64,000 bases of DNA from Sipunculus nudus. Taxonomy: Eukaryota; Annelida; Sipuncula; Golfingiida; Sipunculidae. The notes under the pieces were generated by a model. That model was not told the DNA's origin. It was given only the letters and a program-made list of their open reading frames with translations, and searched no databases. The stretch lies in contig CM049306.1 of NCBI GenBank assembly GCA_026874595.1, positions 82,052,142-82,116,141 on the forward strand. The letters are read 5' to 3'. Numbering within the stretch: position 1 is the first letter of the stretch; each line of letters opens with the position of its first letter. Shown here piece by piece: positions 10,460-50,100 of this stretch. A program made the translations under genes and the position numbers.

Positions 10460-11168
10460 TATATCAAGTACATGTGATCCAATATCCCAAAATGTACTTA
10501 TAAATGGGAAATTGGTACAGATATCGACCTCTATTTGAGACTTAGTATATTCATTGAAAATATCAAACAATAACATCAGTATATTTTAGTTTATATACAC
10601 AATAATATTCATTTGAGGGTGCTGAAAAATCACTGATAGGTATCACAAAACTATTTTTTCTTTGTAGATTACTGTTTAGATTTCAATCATTTGGTGCCAG
10701 AATGTTAGTTACACACGTGAGTTATCTCTACTGGTGGAGCCTTTTTGGATATCAATAAGAAAATGATTTTGAGTGGCATTACATTATAGTCTGTTTTTAT
10801 GGGTATCGGTTTCGAACGATCGAAGGCAACGGGAAATGCCTGGTGGTTATTGTCCCCATGCAGTGCTGGTCTGCACATGGTATTGAACTCTTGTCTGCAA
10901 AAAAATCCTCCGGAATTTTTGCTGGCAATTCCGTAGTCTCTCAAGTTAAAAATAAATCTGTGTGCTGTTTTGGCCTGTAACAGAGTTAAACCGGATAAAG
11001 ATATATCGTACATTATTATGATTATAAAGTTTAATAATTTCTTAATTATAAATAAATAATTGAATAATTATCTTTTTTTCACATCATTGCCGTCATAATT
11101 ATAGTAAAATATTGGACAGAAAATATTATCTAGATCAGTAATTTAAGTAGGCCTTACTTATCATTTAT

Positions 11169-11402
11169 CTATTGAATTCTCCGTTTGCAGTAAAATGAAA
11201 TAAACGCGCGCGACGTTGGGATTTCCCATTGCCTTGCCTTGCCTTGGCCTATAGGTCGTTGCTCCGGTAGTAGCGTCGTTTGCAGCACTGTGAATGTGAA
11301 GGCCCGAGCCTGTGCAGCACTGCAGTGGCTGGCTGTGTAAACAATAAAGCACAGCGTTACAGCCAGTGCTGTTTTCCGTATATCGGTCGATAAGAGGACC
11401 AT
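11169..11402 (-). CDS. Hypothetical small secreted protein, or chance ORF
   Basis: A 77-codon minus-strand frame begins with a convincing signal-peptide profile: charged start, hydrophobic core ALAVTLCFIVYTA, then AAQA as a cleavage site. The rest (about 45 residues) is basic and matches no family I know. An AATATAAG word lies only about 35 bases upstream of the ATG, and local GC is above the surroundings. A longer frame overlaps on the same strand, and no splice partner was found. A first exon of a larger gene is possible. Confidence 0.2.
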   Translation of the reverse strand: MVLLSTDIRKTALAVTLCFIVYTASHCSAAQARAFTFTVLQTTLLPEQRPIGQGKARQWEIPTSRAFISFYCKRRIQ

Positions 11403-11586
11403 TTTCTGGGAAGCGACCCCGAAACCATGCGCTTATATTGCGGAACGCTACCATCATTAGCTTAACACTGCTCGGGGTGAAAAACCGCCAGACCGGATGA
11501 TATACGTCATCCTGGGGACTTCGTCTCCGCCCCCCCCCCCAGATTAATAAAGGAATTTTTATTAGATAATTGAAGATATAAAAAAT

Positions 11587-13759: not shown

Positions 13760-15590
13760 CACTCCACATAACCCATAATATCCCACATAGTATTTCACAT
13801 GCCCCCATGATATCCAACATACTCCATGATATCCAACATACCCCATGATAATCAACATGCTTCATGATATCCCACTTACCCTATGATATCCCACATAACC
13901 CATGATATTCTACATTCCCCATGATACCCAATACAAACGATGATATCCCACATACCCCATGATATTCAACATGCCCTATGATATCCCACATTCTCCAGGA
14001 TTTCCAACATAGCCTTCTTCCATACTTCATGATATCAAACATACTCCATGATATCCTACCTCATGAAATCCCACATATCACCGATGATATCCCACATAAC
14101 CCATGATATTCTACATTCCCCATGATACCCAATACAAACGATGATATCCCACCTACCCCATGATATTCAACATGCCCTATGATATCCCACATTCTCCAGG
14201 ATTTCCAACATAGCCTTCTTCCATACTTCATGATATCAAACATACTCCATGATATCCCACCTCATGATATCCCACATATCACCTGATATTCCACTGCCCA
14301 TGATTTCCCACATGCCTCATAATATCCCATATACCTCATGATATCCAACATACCCCATGATATCCCATATACCCCATGATTTCCCATATACCCCATGATA
14401 ATCAACATACTCCATGATATCCCACATAACCCATGATGTCCCACATGCCTCATAATATCCCACATAACCCATGATATCCCACATACCCCATGATAATCTT
14501 TATGCTCCATGATATCCCACATACCCCATGATAATCAACATACTCCATGATATCCCACATAACCCATGATGTCCCACATGCCTCATAATATCCCACATAA
14601 CCCATGATATCCCACATACCCCATGATAATCTTTATGCTCCATGATATCCCACATACCCCATGATAATCAACATACTCTATGATATCCCACATACCCCAT
14701 GATAATCAACATGCTTCATGATATCCCACATACCCCATGATAATCAACATGCTTCATGATATCCCAAATACCCCATGATAATCAACATGCTTCATGATAT
14801 CCCACATACCCCATGATAATCAACATGCTTCATGATATCCCACATATCCCATAATAATCAACATGTTCATGCTCCATGATATCCCACATACCCCATGATT
14901 ATTAACATGCTCCATGATATCCCACATACCCCATGATAATCAACATGCTTCATGATATACCACATACCCCATGATAATCAACATGCTTCATGATATCCCA
15001 CATACCCCATGATAATCAACATACTCTATGATATCCCACATACCCCATGATAATCAACATGCTTCATGATATCCCACATACCCCATGATAATCAACATGC
15101 TTCATTATATCCCACATACCCCATGATAATCAACTTGCTTCATGATATCCCACATATCCCATAATAATCAACATGTTCATGCTCCATGATATCCCACATA
15201 CCCCATGATTACTAACATGCTCCATGATATCCCACATACCCCATGATAATCAACATGCTTCATGATATCCCACATACCCCATGATAATCTTTATCCTCCA
15301 TTATATCCCACATACCCCATGATAATCAACATGCTCCATGATATCCCACATACCCCGTGATATTCAACATGCTCCATGATATCCCACATATCCCGTGATA
15401 TTCAACATGCTCCATGATATCCCACATATCCCATGATAATCAACATGCTCCGTGATATCTCACATACCCCATGATAATCAACATGCTCCATGATATCCCA
15501 CATATCCCATGATAATCAACATGCTTCATGATATCCCACATACCCCATGATAATCAACATGCTCAATGCATGATATCCCACATGCCTCGT
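13760..15590. repeat. 19-bp minisatellite with 38-bp and longer higher-order units
   Basis: Two monomers, ATGATATCCCACATACCCC and ATGATAATCAACATGCTTC, alternate to make 38-bp dimers over 1.8 kb. Longer blocks are duplicated on top: 13885-14085 repeats at 14086-14286 (201 bp), and the block from 14398 repeats at 14531 (133 bp, seven monomers). The open frames here are by-products of the repeat. Confidence 0.95.
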
Positions 15591-15599
15591 ATTACATCG

Positions 15600-17100
15600 T
15601 ATTACGTTCGGGTCGAGCTTGCCGCTGCAAGGCGTTATTTGGGACTCTTTTGGCACAAATCGGAATATCATATCATTTATTTAAACTTTTATCATGAATT
15701 ATTTTGGTGTTTTCTTAACCGTATACATGTATAAACGTAGCAGGCAGTGACAGCTGATATCAATTCAAACGGCTTAAAATAAAGTGTCTCTTTCCAATAC
15801 TATTTAAAAGTGAAAATAGTGAAATAATATTCATTTATTTATTTCGAACATATTAAATAAGGAAAGCCCAAACTGTTTTGCATAATGATTTTTATCCAAT
15901 GGCGCATACCTCACAGAGGACGATAGAGTATTATCCTAAAGACATCGGAGTTCTAATAGCTTCAAGGATAGTCCCGTTGAACTTGCGAACTTTCGTAGGA
16001 AGTTCTGAATCGGTCGGGGAAACTCGGCGGAACTCGCGATTAATCGTACAAATTTCGGCCAAGCTCGTATATGACTTGTATATAAGTAGGTGTCACAACG
16101 GCGTGACTCGCACAACGCTTATACTGCGCTCGTATACAAGCTCCCGGTGACCTCGTATTTTTCTCCTAAGGCCGTGTCACTCTGGACGATTTAAGGGTAC
16201 GTGTTACCACGAGTGCTGGCATGTAATAACTCGTCGAAATTTGAGTTTGAGTTTGTTTTTGATGACGGAGACATCAGTATAACTCCTGCTCGAGTTCTGT
16301 TCTAGTTCTGTTCCACAGTGATAGGACACTTGTACGATACTTATCTATTTAGTACGAGTTTAATGAACATCTTTGAACGGTCTTTGACTTTTCTACGACA
16401 ACGTCCGAATAAAGGCGTATCTAGATGAATAACGGCAACAAATGCACGAGTTTATGACGAGTTATGACGATTCAAATATGAGTACTGTACATGTGGGGCA
16501 AACATAGGGTGGTTTGGGCATGAATTGTGATGGTTCCGCACTTTTTTACCAGTCTCAAGATTCCCTTGAAGGTGAAAACATTATAGTGATGGCTCATCTT
16601 CCTGTCCAGAGGCTTAGAAATGTTGGAATCTTCTGGAGAAGGGAATATCAAAATCCATCTTTATAGTGTCGCCACGACTCACTCAAACTCGTAAGAATGT
16701 AGAGGACATGTCGAACAGAACACGTACAAACTGGTACGGATATGGAGCAGAGATCGTGTTCATGTCTGCCAATTTCGCGACTAAACTCGTAGGTATCCGG
16801 CGATTTTTTTATAATGGCGAGAATCGCCGACCAACGACGACATGCCTACCACATGTGTACGGGTTTGGGCGACACGCCTTCAACATGTGTTCAACATATG
16901 TACGAGGCAAAAACTCGCATGCACGAGCATTTAAACCCGTTACAAATACTCACCCTACATGGCGAATACCGGTGACATGAAGAGACATCAGTTCGACATG
17001 CAATGACATGGGTTCGAGTTTTGTAACTCGGTGGTCAGTAAGCTCGGGAAAATCGTAATAATCGGGAAAATGTTAGGGCTGGTTAAGTAATATTCGTCTA
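15600..17100. other. Dispersed-repeat-like stretch rich in CTCGTA/TACGAG words
   Basis: This 1.5 kb has higher CpG and GC than its surroundings and many CTCGTA, ACGAGTT and GACGAGTT words. It looks like a repeat family with subterminal motifs rather than a gene. Ends were not resolved, and short open frames here are not supported. Confidence 0.3.
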
Positions 17101-29836: not shown

Positions 29837-30439
29837 GGAGTTGTCGTGAGAACTTAATTGTCATCACTGAAACATCTCGTAATTGTAGAAGTTGCCGGGA
29901 GAAATTAATTGTCCCGGCTGAAACAACTCGAAATGGCAGTTGTCGAGAGAATTTTAATGTCACCACTGAAACAACTTGTAATTGTAGTAGTTGTCGGGAG
30001 AACTTTATTGTCACCACTGAAACAACTCGTAATAGGGGGATAATGTCACCACTGGAAAACTCGTAATTGTAGGAGTTGTCTGAAGACATTAGTGTTCACC
30101 ACTGAAACAACTATTAAGTGTAGGAGTTATCAGGGGAACGTTAATGTCACCACTGAATCAACTCATAATTGTTAGAATTGTGGGTAAAACTTTAATTACA
30201 CCACTGAAACAGCTGTTAATTGTAGGAGTTGTCGGGGGAACTTTATTGTCACCAGTGAATCAACTCGTAACAGGGGGAGTTGTCTGGGGACTTTAATGTC
30301 ACCACTGGACAACTCGTTATTGTTGGATTTGTGGGGAAAACTTCAATGTTACCATGCACTAAAACAACTTGTATTTGTAGGAGTATTTGGGAGAACCTTT
30401 ATGTCACCGCTGAAACAACTCGTAATTGTTATAGAACTG
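29837..30439. repeat. 50-bp minisatellite, about 12 diverged copies
   Basis: Units follow the pattern GGAGTTGTCGGG...TGTCACCACTGAAACAACTC...TAATTGTA, with one truncated unit near 30030-30068. Open frames on both strands come from the repeat. The array ends about 0.9 kb upstream of the cytokine-like promoter. Confidence 0.9.
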
Positions 30440-31255: not shown

Positions 31256-31266
31256 GGGGAATCCCC
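31256..31266 (-). promoter_or_regulatory. NF-kB/Rel site, distal
   Basis: Read on the minus strand this is GGGGATTCCCC, the palindromic kB site (the same 11-mer as the vertebrate MHC class I H2-K site). It lies 42 bases upstream of the second kB site, so the two are about five helical turns apart. Confidence 0.62.
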
Positions 31267-31308: not shown

Positions 31309-31318
31309 GGGATTTCCC
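31309..31318 (+). promoter_or_regulatory. NF-kB/Rel site, TATA-proximal
   Basis: GGGATTTCCC is an exact match to the GGGRNNYYCC consensus, 17 bases before the TATA box. Binding by Rel proteins is known for this consensus; use here is inferred. Confidence 0.68.
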
Positions 31319-31335: not shown

Positions 31336-31343
31336 TATATAAA
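31336..31343 (+). promoter_or_regulatory. TATA box of the cytokine-like gene
   Basis: TATATAAA lies 61 bases before the start codon's first base, placing transcription start near 31365-31370 and leaving a 5'UTR of about 40 bases. Spacing to the upstream kB site and the downstream ATG is that of a compact inducible promoter. Confidence 0.78.
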
Positions 31344-31403: not shown

Positions 31404-31416
31404 ATGAATCTTAATG
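31404..31416 (+). CDS. Exon 1 coding part (MNLN plus one base)
   Basis: Thirteen coding bases, ATG AAT CTT AAT G, are followed by the consensus donor GTAAGT at 31417, so the intron is phase 1. The 5'UTR is short, about 40 bases. The split Gly codon is completed by the first two bases of exon 2. Splitting a signal peptide a few codons after the start is typical of long-chain class I cytokine genes; human EPO exon 1 also carries 13 coding bases, as I recall. Confidence 0.78.
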
Positions 31417-33811
31417 GTAAGTGTTAATGAAACATCCAGGTCGACTGTATGATATAAAATACTGAATAACTAATTTTTCTCTGAATTTTTATCATTCTTT
31501 CTTTTATTTATAAAAATATTTAACACAATATTTATACATTGCACACAAATATGGGTCTAACTTAATAAAAATAATGTTTTTAAATCATTTTCAGTTGTTA
31601 TTATAGATGCATAAATAGCATCTCTCTTAATGCAGACCAAGGATTCCGTATATATGAATTCTTTTTGATAAATATTAAAAAAATACAGCTCTAACGGAAA
31701 ACCTTCCATGCAGTTCTTAGATTTACTGCCGATTTGTATTTTAAATTTACAATGTAATTATGGGTGCTTTCCAATATTTGCCACAGATGTATTTAGAATT
31801 TATTGTGAAATGTTGAATAATAAAAATAGTTATAATAATGATAAGTAAAAGGATAAGAATAATACGAATAACAGGAGTAATAGGAATGATATAAAAAAAT
31901 AACAAAAATTATTGCAGATTAACAAATTATCAACCTTGTTATTTAAAATATAAAGTAAATGAACAGCAATATACAAGAAAAATACAATTCTCCATTTAAA
32001 CCCGACACGTATTTAGTACACTAGAAGCATTTAAATAAAATCTGGCACAAGAATTTCTTACATAATTCTTTCTTCTTCTTTAGGAATAATACTCCTATTG
32101 GTGGGATTCACCATGGCTACAGCAATGCCAGTAGGACGTAAACGGTACTGCAGCCCAAGTAAAAAGCGCGAAGCTTCAAGGAGGGTACCGGCATCTGCTG
32201 CGAAGAGGTCATTGAACGTGTTTTACCTCATGAACTGGATCCAAACACGGATGGATGCCTTTGCGCAAAATCTGGAAAATGCGACAATTGCACTGGTGAG
32301 TTTATTTGTCCGAACAAGTCATAAAAGTTACAAGTTATCATACCTCCTCAAACAGGCGTATGGAATAATGTTTTACACTTGGTTATTTGGTTTGTCTGTG
32401 TGCAATTTTCTGCAAAAAGTTATGAACAGATTTTAATGGAAAATATATGGAGGGTTTGGATAAAATCCCAAGGAACGATTCAATATCTTTCGGGAGGATT
32501 CTGGTTATCCATTGTTTCTTACGGCTATTTAATTATGGAGATATTTTTCGGTATTAGCGGGCAGTTTTTTTTCCCTGCAGGTTACTTAAGATGGGGTTTA
32601 CGGACCGTAAAACTGTTAGGCGTATTCCACAAAGTATGATGAGAATACTCCTGGCGGGGATTTGGAGTCTCTGGCTACTACTTATTTTAATATATCTAGA
32701 TTACCCCCCCCCCCCTTCATTGCGAGACAGACAGACATTTGATTGGGGTTTTGATATAAAAAGTGTATAGTCGTCATGCATATTGAATATCAATAGTAGA
32801 TTCGTAAGCTCAACATCAGAGGCAATAAAATCTTTCCTGCATTTTAGAGCTGACCATTTTGTCCGTACCTCTATCTAAATAACCAGAATAAGCTCCACCA
32901 GTTGTGATATCGGGTGGGGAAATTTATCACTACTTGGGAGTGTATTACATTATCAGTATTAGTGACCCCGACGTACGCAACCATGGCAACGGTAACCCCT
33001 ATATACATGATGTAGATATACAGAGGCGCATACAGAGCGTATATATCAAATGAGTGCATTATATTTTCGATGCCATCTAAAATATAGTTCGTGAGTTTAG
33101 AGCCGGCGGAGGAAAGTGGTCTCTAAGTGCACTTTTATTGTTTGGTTGTGTTATTTATGAATTATTCATGATGTATTACATACCGGCAAGGAATCTATAC
33201 GGGCCAGGAACATGCAACGAGGATTTTGGTTGATTAAATGTCTTTAATCCATACAGATACTGCAAGCTCTGCAAACTTAAATTGACTTCCCCCCAATAGA
33301 TACTCTCTCTCCCTCTCTCTCGTAAAGTGTTATAAATGATATATGATAAAATTGTTATATCAGGTACAAATCAAAAAGTGACTTCGCAAAAGTTATATTA
33401 CTATTAGCACTCCTAAAGAACATTATGTGTCGGGTTGGGTGGGGTAGGTTGGGGGAGGGGGAGGGTGGTAGGAAGGGGCTTTTTATCACCCTTATCTACA
33501 TTTTTTAGGCATTTCTTAAATTTACCAAGAATAAAGTGTGACTATGGAATAAGAACCATTATAATCAGCTTGGCCCTATTATAAATGTAGTTATACATTT
33601 ACATGGTGGATTAGTAAATATTTCCAATCACAGGTTTACCTAATCTTTACTAATGACTTTGCATTTCTTTGCGTCCACTTCTGATGATGCCTCATCAATA
33701 TGAAGGGGGGGGGGGGGGGTATTAAATAATACATTATTTTATTTATTTGGCAAAATAGGCTGTCTTTATCTGCCAATACCATTTGATTCACACATCTTGT
33801 TTTTCAATCCT

Positions 33812-33853
<42 letters not shown>

Positions 33854-34771
33854 GACCGTATCGGTCAAAGGTCAAACCATCACCGAAGTTTCATTATTAC
33901 GTCATCACCTCATGGACTCATGTTCATGACGTTTGGAAATCCCCCAGGTAATGCATCCCCTGGCACGTTTCAACCATGTCCTTTACATGCAGCTGGGAAA
34001 TTAAGTACGTGTATGGTCTCCGAATACACGATCACATAAAATTTATTTTTCATTTGAATTTTTCTCTTTTTTTCCTATTTTATTTGTTTAACATTTTGCA
34101 TACAAAATGGAATTCTCTGCTTAATTACACATATATGAGTGAGGAAACATGATCATATATAAAATCTGGTTTTGTTTTTGTTTGAATTTGATCTTTTATA
34201 ATTCTTTTACCCATATTATATATATATGTATATTATCTTAAATGTTGACTAGCGTTTTAAATTCCCGAAAATGAAAACCTTAAAATCCTTTCTACAATAG
34301 TTTAATTGAGAGATCTCATGCACACGTTGTGATAAAACACAATAAAAATAAATAAAATTTGTATTTGCATTTAACCTGTGGTAAATAAATTTATCGAATG
34401 TGTTAACATACACACACACACACACACCGCACACACACTCACATACACACACACATATAATATATATATTAATATATATATATTAAGATTATGACATTAT
34501 TTCATATTATTTTCCTTTTCATTGCAGGAAAGTCAGTTACCAAGAAAATGTAGGAGTAACGTCACCAAAAAATTCCGCTGTGTAAGTTATTTTCGCTACC
34601 TTATTGTATAATGGATGACTAACAGTAGCTGGAAAGGGTTATACTAAGATAATCCAAAATGCTTTGTTAGCTAATTAAGTCTGCTATTACGGTTCGAATT
34701 TGCTATTTTTTTTATCAGAATGCCGTATTCTAATAGCACTAGGTCTTTTTTATATAACGAGCATATAAATA

Positions 34772-34804
<33 letters not shown>

Positions 34805-35617
34805 TATAAGTGTTTTAAGAAGCAGAGTATTATTATGTAGGACATTGATTTAATTTAAAGAGTGTTTTGTATATTACCTATTTCATTTTCAAATATGATA
34901 CAAATAATTAATAAATTTATCATTAATAGATATCATAAGATACGTACGATACTTATTCACCTGGCATGGTGCATGTTTAATATATATATAAGGCATGTGC
35001 ATGATATCTGAGGTTATCTTAATTTATTTTACTGCTTTAACTTTTAACCAAAACGGATACATTTTATACATCAGTTAATACTTCGAAAATAATTTCGTAA
35101 GGCATAACCAACTATAACGAAAGTATTCTAGGTTAATAGGTTAATTATACTACAACCGTATAAAGACTAATAAATCTTTAAGCCGGATCCATTTGATTAA
35201 GGCAGGGTGGGGAAAATACCAATATAGACCACAGAGTGTCGTAAAATGCCTTCCGTTTTCAAATACTTCCTTAACCCTATTCCTTTTTAATTTCAGCATA
35301 ATCTTTTGTTTGGTACAAACTTACTGAAAAGTTTGTCATTCAAATCTTTTACGCTGTTTTCAAATGGTACCTCCCCATCGCTCTCAGATGGTTTTCTAAC
35401 GCATGCGTTATACTTGAGCGCGACCCAATCTCGGGTCATCGAGTGCGTCATGTATGTTTCATATTCAGATACTAGAACAGAATTCTGACGTTCTAAACAA
35501 AAGTACAACCAAATTTTGCTCGTTAGTCTCTTTAATTCAATGTACAAAATGACTTAAATCATCCCGTATTTATACATATGAATATACATTATTATTGTTA
35601 TAGTTATAATTTTTACA

Positions 35618-35670
<53 letters not shown>

Positions 35671-38171
35671 AATGGTAAACCCTGCAATTGATTAGTTTAC
35701 CTTAACGTCCGACATATCATAAATTAAACTAAGGAAACAAATATGATTTCATTATTAAATATAACATCATCAAGATATATTTTATTCATATTTCTTTATT
35801 GACGAATGGTGTGGAAAGAAATCCTACAGGTAGTGAAAAGTTTAGCCAACAGATGGCGGTGTATCTTGTTAACAAAATATGTTGTGTGATGTCATAAAAA
35901 CCTGGTGCTGGGAGCTAAGCCACTGTTTGTAGCTTAGTTTTATATAAATCTTAAAAGCTTTAGCCAAAAAGGCGACGCACATGTTTTGTGAAATATTATT
36001 TGTGTAAGAGTTGTCGAAAATTGATCAACTCATGCGTGTCAACAAATATATAGTTTTATTAATTTAAATAAAAAAAAGTGCCCAAAAGCCTAGACCATAA
36101 GGCTAGACAGACAAATTCAAAAAGAAAAATTCTTAAACATGTAAATGAAAAAGAATAATTTCAATTTTATTAAGATAGTTTACATGCTGAATAATTTCTA
36201 ATGTTTCTCTGAAAGAGTGAAAATATATGTTAAGATATTACAAAACGGAAGTAACAAAAAAAGTTTTATCTCTTTTCCTCCTGTATTTATCACAAAAGCA
36301 TGTCTGCATGAACTTGCATGCCTTTTCTACTAACCGTTTTCAGCTATCAGACAAGATGGACCCGATAATAGAGATGTTTTCGCAGGCCTTGGTTGCTCTC
36401 AGCTACATACTGGACTATGATGACCTCGAGGCCGACGAAAATTCAACTGTATGTAATGGGTGTATGTGTCATGTGTCTGTGTGTATATATGTGCGTGCCT
36501 GTAAGTCCAAATGCGGTTTACATAAACTTTTGATCTAACGTAAAACCCGGTGAACCTCCTGATATTGCCTTCTAAACCGGAATGACTTACGAAAATATAA
36601 TTTCTAATGCCTGAAGGGGGCCCAATCACCTATCTGACCTTTATAAACTAAATATATTTTCTTGGAGCTTTTATAAAATAGGCAAAAAACATGGATATCA
36701 CCGCACACAGGCCGCTTAATTTGTTTTTATCAACGTGTTTATAAAATGTGGGGGACCCGCCAAAATGACCAAAACAAATTCAACAAGGGCATCTGGCAGC
36801 AAGTCAGATAAGCCAGAGCTTTGCAAATGATATTTTGCAACTAGTAACCTTTCTACATACACACATATGCAACCTACCACCTAAGGTTACATGTTTACCC
36901 ATTTGTTCACATTGCTGTGTTTACAAAAATGCTGTTGATAAACAAGTTCACACATCCTTCAGGAAGGCGTCATAAGATCTTTTCACAGCCAAAATTACCC
37001 TTAGATCATTAATATATACACAGGGGAAGCTATAGAAATCACAAAAATTCTTTTTTGAAAGGTAGTTGAATGGGCACCTTTAAGGTGAGCAACATGGAAA
37101 AACTAATAAACACACGATTAATACACAGTTGAAACTGTCTAAAAGAGAACCTTTCTCAGAAGACTACCTGTCAGTTTGACTATAATTGACCTGTCTAATA
37201 AGGCCACATAAAGTAAGTCGACTCTCGACCAGTTCGATGGGTGGTCTCATAACACAGGTATCACTGTACACGTATTTCAAGCAGGAATCCACATACAGTC
37301 ATTATAATATTCGTATTTAAAATGTTGATATCATTGGTGCTCCATAAAAGGATTTCGTGGCAGTAATAATAAGTGTAAATCTCATGCGGACATGCGCGGA
37401 TGTATTTTTTTTTGTGTATGAGTGTGTGTATAAGAAAGAGAGATTATAATTATTTCCACACTTTTTTGTAGATACCCGAGAAGTAACATAATTATTTAAT
37501 TCTATTTTGACATTTGATATATACTAACAGCATGATAAAAATATTAACAGCATGCCCGTTATATTTATGTACAAAATAACAATGCTATATATTAATACCC
37601 TGGCTGCATGCTAAGTATTGAAACATGTCTTATTGCTAATTAACTTGGCTTATCAATCAGCGCTTACAAGATTAAGCATTTGCAGATCAGTTGCAACGCT
37701 ATGGTTTGACTGCGGTGGCTTAGGCATATTTTTTAATGTTTTAGACATTAAAAGACTATGTTATATCTTTTACATGGTCAAATATATTTTTTTTTCTGTG
37801 TTTAGGATCGAGAGGATGCGGAACTTGTGTACTGCAAACTGGTGGAGCTGAGCGACACCTTGCGGCAAATTTCGAAAATAGCGAAGGTGGCCAAGACTCC
37901 ATTTCCTTTACTCAGAAACAACAGTCTGGAATTCAACCCTCACTATGGCGTACAACAGGCTATTTGCAAACTTGAAATAATAATCAGATACTTGGGTAAT
38001 AAAACACCCTGGCACACCTGTGACAAGAAGAAAGAGTTTGATGACGTCATGAGCACTCGAGACCCAGATGTCAAATCAGAAATATGTGATTTATTGATAG
38101 AGGCGCACGACAAACAAATTCACTTATCTTGCACCGTTGAAAGTCTAATAAAAAACAGGATGGAAGGCTAG
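31404..38171 (+). CDS. Secreted helical-cytokine-like protein, five exons (31404-31416, 32084-32295, 34528-34581, 36344-36448, 37806-38171)
   Basis: The five exons join into one 249-residue frame with GT/AG borders throughout. Residues 1-18 form a signal peptide (hydrophobic core IILLLVGFTMATA). Residues 19-46 are basic, with RKR, KKR, RR and a final KR that may be cut. Predicted amphipathic helices are about 47-79, 94-118, 129-158 and 175-191, followed by a C-terminal helical region about 204-246. Cysteines are at 27, 83, 93, 138, 182, 200, 222 and 237, enough for four disulfides. N-glycosylation sequons are at N70, N86, N126, N166 and N193. Exon 1 is tiny and ends in phase 1; the other introns are phase 0, as in growth hormone, EPO and IL-6 genes. 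The Met at 31404 is chosen because it follows the TATA box by about 60 bases, has A at -3 and starts the signal peptide. No homologue is recognised from memory, so the cytokine role is inferred from architecture and regulation. Alternatives are another helical secreted ligand, for example IL-34/M-CSF-like. Confidence 0.83.
32084..32295 (+). CDS. Exon 2: rest of signal peptide, basic pro-segment, helix A
   Basis: The acceptor is a pyrimidine run ending TTCTTTAG at 32083; the donor GTGAGT is at 32296. The exon has 212 bases, enters in phase 1 and leaves in phase 0. It encodes residues 5-75: the hydrophobic signal core, then the basic stretch with Cys27, then helix A (FYLMNWIQTRMDAFAQNLEN) with sequon N70. 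Another frame is also open over the last 45 or so codons (see findings), but it has an in-frame TAA upstream and stops soon after splicing, so the signal-peptide frame is preferred. Confidence 0.82.
34528..34581 (+). CDS. Exon 3: A-B loop with two cysteines
   Basis: The acceptor TTTTCATTGCAG ends at 34527 and the donor GTAAGT starts at 34582. The exon has 54 bases, 18 codons, and is phase 0 at both ends. It encodes residues 76-93, with Cys83 and Cys93 and sequon N86-V-T. It is too short for the ORF cut-off and was found by frame and splice consistency. Confidence 0.78.
35293..35547 (-). pseudogene. Antisense open frame in intron 3, weakly FGF-C-terminus-like
   Basis: An 84-codon minus-strand frame is richer in GC than the surrounding intron. 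It contains SEYETYMTHSMTRDWVALKY, resembling the Y-x-T-Y...W-V-A-L-K segment of the last fibroblast growth factor beta strands. The usual FGF cysteine signature and the terminal FLP motif are not clear. The minus strand also shows an acceptor-like TTTGTTTAG and a donor GTAAGT around it, so a phase 1-1 exon is possible. The plus strand is open too. It may be a captured gene fragment, an antisense exon or chance. Confidence 0.2.
35618..35669. repeat. (ATT)n microsatellite
   Basis: About 17 uninterrupted ATT triplets within intron 3. Confidence 0.95.
36344..36448 (+). CDS. Exon 4: helix B
   Basis: A canonical branch-point word TACTAAC (36329-36335) sits just before the acceptor CCGTTTTCAG (ends 36343). 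The donor is GTATGT at 36449. The exon has 105 bases and is phase 0 at both ends. It encodes residues 94-128, an amphipathic helix (DPIIEMFSQALVALSYILDY) and an acidic tail ending in sequon N126-S-T. Confidence 0.84.
37126..37266. mobile_element. Tigger/pogo-like MITE relic in intron 4
   Basis: The ends read CAGTTGAAACTGTC... and ...GGTATCACTG followed by TA, a decayed version of the CAGTGAAACC-type termini seen elsewhere in the window. Length is about 141 bp. Confidence 0.4.
37806..38171 (+). CDS. Exon 5: helices C and D and C-terminal helical tail
   Basis: The acceptor TTTCTGTGTTTAG ends at 37805. The exon encodes residues 129-249 and ends at TAG 38169-38171. Helix C is about 129-158 (ELVYCKLVELSDTLRQISKI). 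A proline-rich turn follows, then helix D about 175-191 (GVQQAICKLEIIIRYL), sequon N193-K-T, and a charged tail with Cys200, Cys222 and Cys237. Codon use and GC are clearly more gene-like than the surrounding AT-rich DNA. Confidence 0.86.
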   Translation, partial: DREDAELVYCKLVELSDTLRQISKIAKVAKTPFPLLRNNSLEFNPHYGVQQAICKLEIIIRYLGNKTPWHTCDKKKEFDDVMSTRDPDVKSEICDLLIEAHDKQIHLSCTVESLIKNRMEG

Positions 38172-39090
38172 ATCAAGAGCGCAATATAAGACCAAATGGG
38201 GATTTCTGTCTTAGACGTTTAATGACGCATTTTTGAAACATATGTAATCAGGACATATTTATATATTTATCTATTGTTACGTGTTCCATTATTTATAGCA
38301 CAAGGATAATTTATTATATAACACAGGTGTATTGTTTGTTGTCAGTGAAGTCACATGCATACCTCAGATGCGCCTATGCACATTTTGATCATCGCTACGG
38401 CTATTGCCAGGCAATATTGGATGTTTATGAATTATAATTGTTAACACATATATATGTTGTCTAACTTGAAGGAAAGAGCTGACAGTATTTCCAGAAGACT
38501 AGATCTGATATCAGTATTTGGAGGAGAATATTTTATGGAATGTGTACCTATTTATCTTTTCCTTTTACTTGATGTATTGAAAATGCTCAATTTACATAAA
38601 TTATTCAAGTGACTTATGAAGTGTAAGACGTACAAGTAGACATATATATGTATAATTATAAATATGTGTATTATATATAATTATATATTCTTAAATAGCT
38701 ATATATAGTTTATATAAAAATCAATTATTATAGTTATATAATTATTATTGAAAGAAATATTATATATAAGTAACTGTGATCTCAAATGTAATATGCACTT
38801 GGTATTGTCTATAGATCTTGCCATTAATCCAGGATAGCTGTATTAAGACACTAAACTGATCATATTTACAGGGCACTTGAATCCTCATATATTTATAGTT
38901 TATTAATTTCTGACTTTTTTTTTATTTATTTTGCACTTGTTTACAAGGTTGTCCAAGATATATATGCTTATATTTACAAGATAATGATATATTTTTTATA
39001 TGTGCTTTATTCAAGGAGTATTCCTGCTCAAATAGTGAATATTTATAATGGTGCTTGTATCAATAAAGAATAAATGTTATATGCACTTTA
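38172..39090 (+). other. 3'UTR of the cytokine-like gene, AU-rich-element type
   Basis: Between the stop codon and the poly(A) signals there are eleven ATTTA pentamers (starting at 38257, 38265, 38291, 38309, 38550, 38590, 38864, 38891, 38934, 38972, 39041). Two sit in nonamers, TTATTTATA at 38289 and TTATTTATT at 38932. Class I/II AU-rich elements of this kind mark rapidly decaying cytokine mRNAs in animals. Background AT content alone would predict several pentamers, so the nonamers are the stronger evidence. Confidence 0.6.
39062..39074 (+). terminator. Twin polyadenylation signals
   Basis: AATAAA occurs at 39062 and again at 39069. Cleavage would be expected around 39085-39095, giving a 3'UTR of about 0.9 kb. 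Confidence 0.6.
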
Positions 39091-48949: not shown

Positions 48950-50100
48950 TAGTCAGATGAATGAGCAAGGAGGAAGAAAATGAGCCATTGCTTGTGCATC
49001 TAGGGCCAATATTGTCAAAGTTATGAGGGAAATCAGATTTTGACGTGTTTTGAGGACCTTTGACCTATTTAGACAATACACATAGAAATTCCAGAAATCT
49101 TTAAGACGTACGATAGGAAAGTTACAAAGGGATTCTAGCAAAACTGAGGACTGAAGAATGCTATATGTAAGACGCATGAACCAACAAGCAAGAGAAATTG
49201 AGACAGCTGACAAACAGACTGACATGCTGACAAAGTGACATAAGATTTAGATCAGATGACTTAACCAAGTTATGGAGAGACTCAGAGTAAGAAAGTTTAT
49301 GTAATTGAGGTTCATAGTTTGGAGATATTACCAAAAAATGATATGTTGGGAAGGTTCGAGTGCAGCGACCCCTAGCGGCCATATCCGGAAAATGAAAAAT
49401 TCTTTTCGAGATGTATTACTGTATGACATGTAATACTGTAACAGTTTCAAGAAGATTAATGCAATATTTTCCGTGTAGAATGCTATATGTGAGACGCAAG
49501 AACCAGCAAGCAGGCGAATAGAGGACAAATGACAGACAGACAGACATACTGAAACAGTGACACATGACTGAGACCAGATGACTTAACTAGGTCATGAAGA
49601 AGACTCAGAGGAAGAAAATAAGCTATAGTTTATGTGACTGAGGTTTATAATTTTGGAGTAATGGCCAAAAATGTTATGTTTGGGAAGTTCAAGTGCAACG
49701 CTCCCTAGAGGCCATATCGGAAAAATGACAATTCTATTTTGAGTTATTACTGTAAGACATAAGATGTACCAGTTTCAAGAGGATTAATGCAAAACTTTGG
49801 ATTGTAGAATGATATATGTGAGTTGCAAAAACCAGCACGCAGACGAATTAGAGGACAACTGACAGACAGTCAGACATACTGACACAGTGACACATGATTG
49901 AGACCAGATGACTTAACCAGGTTATGGAAAAAAACTCAGAGGAAGAAGGTTTATGTAATTGAGGTTCATAGTTTTGAGATATGGTCAAAAAATGATATGT
50001 TTGGCAGGTTCGGCTGCAGCGTCTCCTAGTGGCCTAATCCCAAAAATGAAAAATCAGTCGAGATATAAGTGTAAAACAGAAGTTTTCCCAGTTTCAAATT
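48950..50100. repeat. 330-bp tandem repeat, three copies plus a partial one
   Basis: Copies start near 49152, 49477 and 49806 with GAATGCTATATGTGAGACGC-type sequence; a partial copy precedes them. Each contains GACAGACAGACATACTGA-type, ATGACTTAACCAGG-type and GCAGCGNCCCCTAGNGGCC-type blocks. Confidence 0.85.

Follow-up and report, generated by a model that had tools for sequence, protein, structure and literature searches.

The locus considered here raises the question of whether an invertebrate genome encodes a secreted helical cytokine that belongs to no recognizable sequence family, and whether the product of the gene concerned, termed gene A in the following, may fill part of the gap in the known immune hormones of invertebrates. 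Gene A lies in C1:82052142–82116141, a stretch of 64,000 nt that is referred to as the window and provides the numbering for all features below, including those beyond its ends; the genome searched comprises 1,426,538,692 bases in 153 contigs. A sequence-only reading had joined five exons without a stop into a 249-residue chain with eight cysteines and five sequons, and this description proved exact when borders, phases, and counts were derived anew. All five exons are on the (+) strand and have GT/AG borders, with intron phases of 1, 0, 0, and 0, and they specify 249 amino acids followed by a stop. The coding part of exon 1 (31404–31416) reads MNLN|G and is interrupted by the phase 1 intron; exon 2 (32084–32295, 212 nt) adds the remainder of the signal peptide, a basic stretch, and the first long helix; exon 3 (34528–34581, 54 nt) encodes 18 residues that include two cysteines and a sequon, and is the weakest part of the model; exon 4 (36344–36448, 105 nt) encodes 35 residues with the sequon NST at its end; and exon 5 (37806–38171, 366 nt) encodes 121 residues plus the stop codon. 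None of the gene A exons tested contained an in-frame stop, compared with nine and eight stops when exon 5 is read in the two alternative frames.

The gene model was derived by home-made splice and codon scoring, with generic tables set from general knowledge and seven intron penalties ranging from 0 to 6. Exactly the five-exon chain was chosen at two of the seven penalties (1 and 2), with a score of 32.0 at penalty 2; with the penalty set to 0, the model inserted tiny spurious exons, at penalties of at least 3 it lost exon 3, and at penalties of at least 4 exon 1 was lost too. The donors of exons 3 and 4 are weak, with scores of 3.6 and 2.6, respectively. It might be argued that gene A is no gene and that open frames were chained by chance, considering its weak exon 3, the lack of a relative, the fact that it is known from DNA alone, and the higher scores of some nearby repeats in the same model. 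We find this scarcely credible: in 400 simulated Markov sequences of 7.4 kb each, the best chain per sequence did not exceed 5.3 at penalty 2, against 32.0 for gene A, a value comparable to the 36.2 of the piece with a 5-HT4-like receptor gene, and promoter motifs and poly(A) signals are correctly placed. The chain score alone is not proof of gene A, since 14 of 182 overlapping pieces of 7.4 kb, taken from the 344 kb around it (both strands), scored above 32; two of these pieces contain a zinc-finger gene, one the 5-HT4-like receptor gene, one part of gene A, and among the other ten several are visibly tandem repeats or Arg-Glu runs. Gene A is very probably genuine, with a secreted helical protein as its product.

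The N-terminus of this protein resembles a signal peptide, with a hydrophobic core (mean hydrophobicity of 2.82 for the ten residues starting at residue 6) that, as judged by hydrophobicity only, is in line with the secretion claimed earlier; the putative signal peptide comprises residues 1–18, its end at 18 being set by eye. Residues 19–46 are basic and end in AAKR (residues 43–46), plausibly a cleavage site. For residues 47–249, a mass of 23.5 kDa and an acidic pI of 5.3 were computed. The cysteines are at positions 27, 83, 93, 138, 182, 200, 222, and 237, with Cys27 located in the basic N-terminal stretch. Exon 2, folded alone and without an alignment, formed a helix at protein residues 42–74, with pLDDT block means of 84, 94, and 80 over the last 30 residues (overall mean 68.4, pTM 0.35). 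Exon 5, folded in the same manner, gave helices at 130–156, 177–194, 203–209, and 215–248 (protein numbering), with a mean pLDDT of 72.9 and a pTM of 0.71, the five models spanning 44.2 to 72.9. Of the four to six helices proposed previously, those in exons 2 and 5 thus appeared in the folded fragments, whereas exon 4 is helical by propensity only. The four-helix up-up-down-down bundle with two long crossovers that characterizes class I was approached through these two separately folded exons; structure comparison of the gene A fragments returned generic helix bundles only, the nearest neighbors of exon 5 being de novo designs and talin-like bundles, i.e., ordinary helix bundles. About 19 residues lie between the exon 2 and exon 4 helices, and the crossover loops are not plainly long; owing to this short spacing, a class I reading needs the exon 4 helix to lie inside the A–B crossover.

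Also in line with the sequence-only reading, no sequence family became apparent. At E values up to 10, there were no relatives among 355 word-sharing candidates for the whole protein or among four such candidates for exon 5 alone in a collection of ~5.8 billion proteins, an absence that says little because this collection may hold few invertebrate proteins. A Pfam scan at E up to 10, Egg_lysin (PF01303) included, retrieved no family, and PDB sequences gave two matches, at E 0.73 (unrelated) and 2.1, that we took as chance; for lack of a Pfam or PDB sequence match, gene A is not assigned to any named family. Within its own genome, all four matches at E up to 10 were its own exons and no second copy was found. 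A helical, secreted protein for which no relatives were found might as well be a fast-evolving, lineage-specific reproductive protein of the egg-lysin kind. This we consider very improbable, as judged from the missing PF01303 match, from the eight cysteines and five sequons of the gene A protein, which lysin is not known to have, and from the immune-type promoter of gene A.

This promoter, with a pair of kappaB sites and a TATA box, constitutes the strongest new evidence on gene A. A palindromic kappaB site, GGGGAATCCCC (31256–31266), is the sole match to GGGGAATYCCC in 344 kb, and a second palindromic site, GGGATTTCCC (31309–31318), is located 17 bases upstream of the TATA box TATATAAA (31336–31343, (+) strand), which itself starts 68 bases upstream of the ATG. 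The kappaB consensus occurs at 20 distinct sites in 344 kb, and those at 31256 and 31309 form the sole pair less than 100 bp apart; such a pair arose in none of 40 simulated 344-kb copies (mean of 17.1 sites), too few runs for a probability. At a density of 20 sites per 344 kb, ~0.009 sites are expected per 150 bp, and two would occur there by chance with a probability of ~4e-5, assuming independence. In the window, kappaB matches number 10 when both strands and overlaps are counted, versus 3.24 expected, and one of 100 shuffles reached 10. AP-1, STAT, and C/EBP sites had no match in the 600 bp upstream of gene A. The IL-6 promoter carries a kappaB site, as does that of gene A, and at the level of motifs the promoter looks inducible, in agreement with the earlier claim that it points to a cytokine. 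Two features in the wider surroundings are mentioned in passing: a 51-base satellite, arranged as two arrays of 3.9 and 7.6 copies (window 29839–30429), ends ~0.8 kb upstream of the gene A kappaB sites, and another palindromic kappaB match, at 11218, lies inside a single 98-residue open frame (11161–11457, (–) strand) that has a gene-model score of 6.7 at penalty 7.5 and may be chance.

The probable 3’UTR (38172–39079, (+) strand), its end set at the poly(A) signals AATAAA at 39062 and 39069, contains 11 ATTTA motifs in 908 nt, a count that 0.17% of the surrounding 908-nt windows reach. Given the base composition of the 3’ end itself, p values are 0.076 for ATTTA, 0.104 for TTATTTAWW, and 0.012 for TATTTAW, so that the ATTTA excess is weak. 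Of the cytokine-like 3’UTR claimed before, AU-richness and the 11 motifs were retrieved, but their excess weakened once base composition was modeled. A signal for mRNA decay in the 3’ end of gene A is accordingly only suggestive, and the kappaB signal is the stronger of the two.

A kappaB/TATA promoter and secretion would suit any immune gene. The main rival to a cytokine is therefore an immune-induced, secreted helical effector that does not signal (e.g., antimicrobial, lipid-binding, or opsonizing) and is expressed from the same kappaB promoter; the resemblance of the gene A fragments to generic helix bundles would fit such a protein too. On balance, we regard an effector as somewhat unlikely: Pfam revealed no known effector domain at E up to 10, the portion after AAKR is acidic, unlike most membrane-active helical peptides, and an AU-rich 3’ end, provided that it is genuine, would sooner be expected of a cytokine.

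If gene A encodes a cytokine, the next issue is its class. In class I genes, the coding sequence for the signal peptide is interrupted near its start by a phase 1 intron, and the introns that follow are in phase 0. Gene A shares with the long-chain class I cytokines (IL-6/LIF, EPO, GH) secretion, helices, cysteines, and a first coding exon that is short and followed by a phase 1 intron, all later introns being in phase 0, but differs from them in lacking a sequence match, in the placement of three long helices in a single final exon, and in an A–B crossover that would hold an extra helix. The phases 1, 0, 0, 0 do not settle the choice between class I and class II because IFNL2/3 genes start alike: their first exon encodes four residues, the intron after it is in phase 1, and subsequent introns are in phase 0 (PMC2654155). 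A class II-type helical cytokine, interferon- or IL-10-like and acting on a class II receptor pair rather than on a gp130/Domeless-type receptor, would likewise be in line with the roughly five long helices, their rather short links, and a last helix of 34 residues, several helices with short links being a feature that gene A has in common with IFN-lambda 2/3 and the IL-10 family, to which it has no sequence match. We nevertheless judge class II decidedly unlikely, as there is no Pfam match for the protein and as intron 1 in phase 1 departs from the four introns, all in phase 0, that PMC4929537 gives for teleost type I IFN genes, a pattern to which IFNL2/3 is an exception. From the original helical cytokine interpretation, the secreted, helix-rich protein that lacks relatives in the collections searched, the inducible-looking promoter, and the AU-rich 3’ end have persisted, whereas the phases do not pick a class.

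As to the pathway, a class I cytokine would bind a class I (WSXWS) receptor and signal by JAK/STAT. The STAT_bind profile had three matches over the cut-off in the genome (best E 7.2e-8). One of ten FERM_F1 matches exceeded the cut-off (E 2.7e-9), an exon that we take to be JAK-like in view of the domain’s tie to JAKs. The proposed gp130/Domeless-type receptor failed to emerge, as none of seven IL6Ra-bind matches in the genome was over the cut-off, with which a diverged receptor would still be compatible. Among known invertebrate ligands, insect Unpaired (Upd1-3, ligands of Domeless) resembles gene A in being a secreted invertebrate protein, gene A being only proposed as a JAK/STAT ligand; the libraries searched yielded nothing similar. 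In shrimp, the Domeless ligands MjCC-CL (PMC5645147) and Prx4 (PMC9195186) are described as JAK/STAT activators in immunity; the former is a C-type lectin that contains a coiled coil, the latter a peroxiredoxin, whereas the gene A product is a stand-alone helical protein. For the oyster, PMC8218723 reports CgIFNLP, an IFN-like antiviral cytokine of a mollusc that we liken to gene A by description only. According to a survey from 2026 that covered 18 phyla or subphyla (PMC13203501), IL6R, JAK, and STAT occur together in molluscs, whereas IL6 is confined to vertebrates; Upd serves as a ligand of the same pathway in insects and a lectin does so in shrimp, and other ligands are called possible. 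A GH-like type I cytokine is present in amphioxus (PMC9010856). In the open-licence literature on molluscan and invertebrate helical JAK/STAT ligands, none of the matches listed described a class I-like ligand from a mollusc, and no paper was found there for AlphaFold-era reports or for exon structure.

Our preferred reading, which we hold tentatively, is that gene A encodes an NF-kappaB-inducible cytokine that is secreted, forms a helical bundle, and most probably follows the architecture of the long-chain class I ligands. We arrive at a cytokine because of the gene model, the kappaB/TATA promoter, the helices, the ATTTA count, the intron phases, the FERM_F1 and STAT_bind matches, and the layout shared with a neighboring gene, gene B (see below). 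Arguing against a cytokine are the absence of a sequence family, crossovers that are not plainly long, the generic exon 5 fold, the weak ATTTA excess, the lack of a receptor over the cut-off and of AP-1, STAT, or C/EBP sites upstream, and a gene B that has neither sequence similarity to gene A nor a kappaB match within 600 bp. In a conceivable scenario, danger signals would activate a Rel/NF-kappaB factor that occupies the two kappaB sites, whereupon the TATA promoter would fire and an AU-rich, short-lived mRNA might give rise to a burst of protein. Upon removal of the signal peptide and cleavage of the basic N-terminal stretch at AAKR, a glycosylated, disulphide-bonded bundle of ~23.5 kDa before sugars would be left, which may bind a blood-cell surface receptor signaling via JAK and STAT.

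Gene B is a second gene on the same (+) strand, ~34 kb downstream of gene A (72120–84853), and a putative secreted, helical-looking protein with eight cysteines is its product. Its exons at 72120–72334, 82269–82418, and 84488–84853 (215, 150, and 366 nt) resemble in length those of gene A (212, 54 + 105, and 366 nt); a first exon was guessed at 65368–65410 (+). With a filter fixed after genes A and B had already been seen, phase 1 exons continuing a signal peptide numbered two in 344 kb scanned on both strands, exon 2 of gene A and the exon at 72120–72334, both (+). Gene B models scored 13.5 to 15.5 (penalties 6 and 5.5), far under gene A. By eye and from propensities, the protein might consist of a single long helix, followed by an extended loop that bears three cysteines and then by three helices encoded in the last exon; this would be the long-chain class I order. 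The whole protein matched no Pfam family, its last exon alone reached DUF632 at E 0.077, under the cut-off, PDB sequences gave nothing better than E 0.87, and none of 348 candidates from the ~5.8 billion proteins was a relative at E up to 10; in its own genome, gene B matched its own three exons and two further places (E 2.3 and 4.5). No kappaB match was present in the 600 bp before the guessed start, although a match does occur at 67118, downstream of the guessed first exon and ahead of exon 2.

Paralogy of the two genes by sequence was rejected, with a BLASTP E value of 5.9 and z values of –0.4 for the global alignment and –1.8 for the last exons. The pairing of A and B is one of layout, since there is no sequence similarity. 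We consider it unlikely that both are diverged tandem copies of one helical cytokine gene and the founding members of a class I-like cytokine locus in protostomes, in which gene A is NF-kappaB-inducible and which supplies the missing IL6R/Domeless-JAK-STAT ligands outside arthropods; if true, this would date the ligand family before the protostome–deuterostome split. Sequence searches detect such ligands poorly, and promoter motifs together with gene architecture single out gene A and its neighbor gene B as testable. This suggests a search for kappaB-pair/TATA promoters ahead of first exons that are short and followed by a phase 1 intron.

Genes A and B are flanked by a C2H2 zinc-finger gene and a 5-HT4-like receptor gene. 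The long exons of the former (~–20296 to –18374, (–) strand), upstream of gene A, had Pfam zinc-finger matches under the cut-off, and the encoded protein presumably resembles the C-terminal finger of Ikaros/hunchback. The class A receptor exon (91797–92959, (–) strand) matched 7tm_1 at E 1.3e-59, with 5-HT receptor 4 as the closest PDB sequence (E 5.6e-84). A reverse-transcriptase-like remnant, recognized by eye, is situated within a gene B intron (79061–79987, (–) strand). Repeats in the window further include a minisatellite at 13803–15583, with 47 copies of a 38-base unit and a strong strand skew (GC skew of –0.51 in 14001–16000), and a tandem array at 49138–50054 with 2.8 copies of a 322-base unit.
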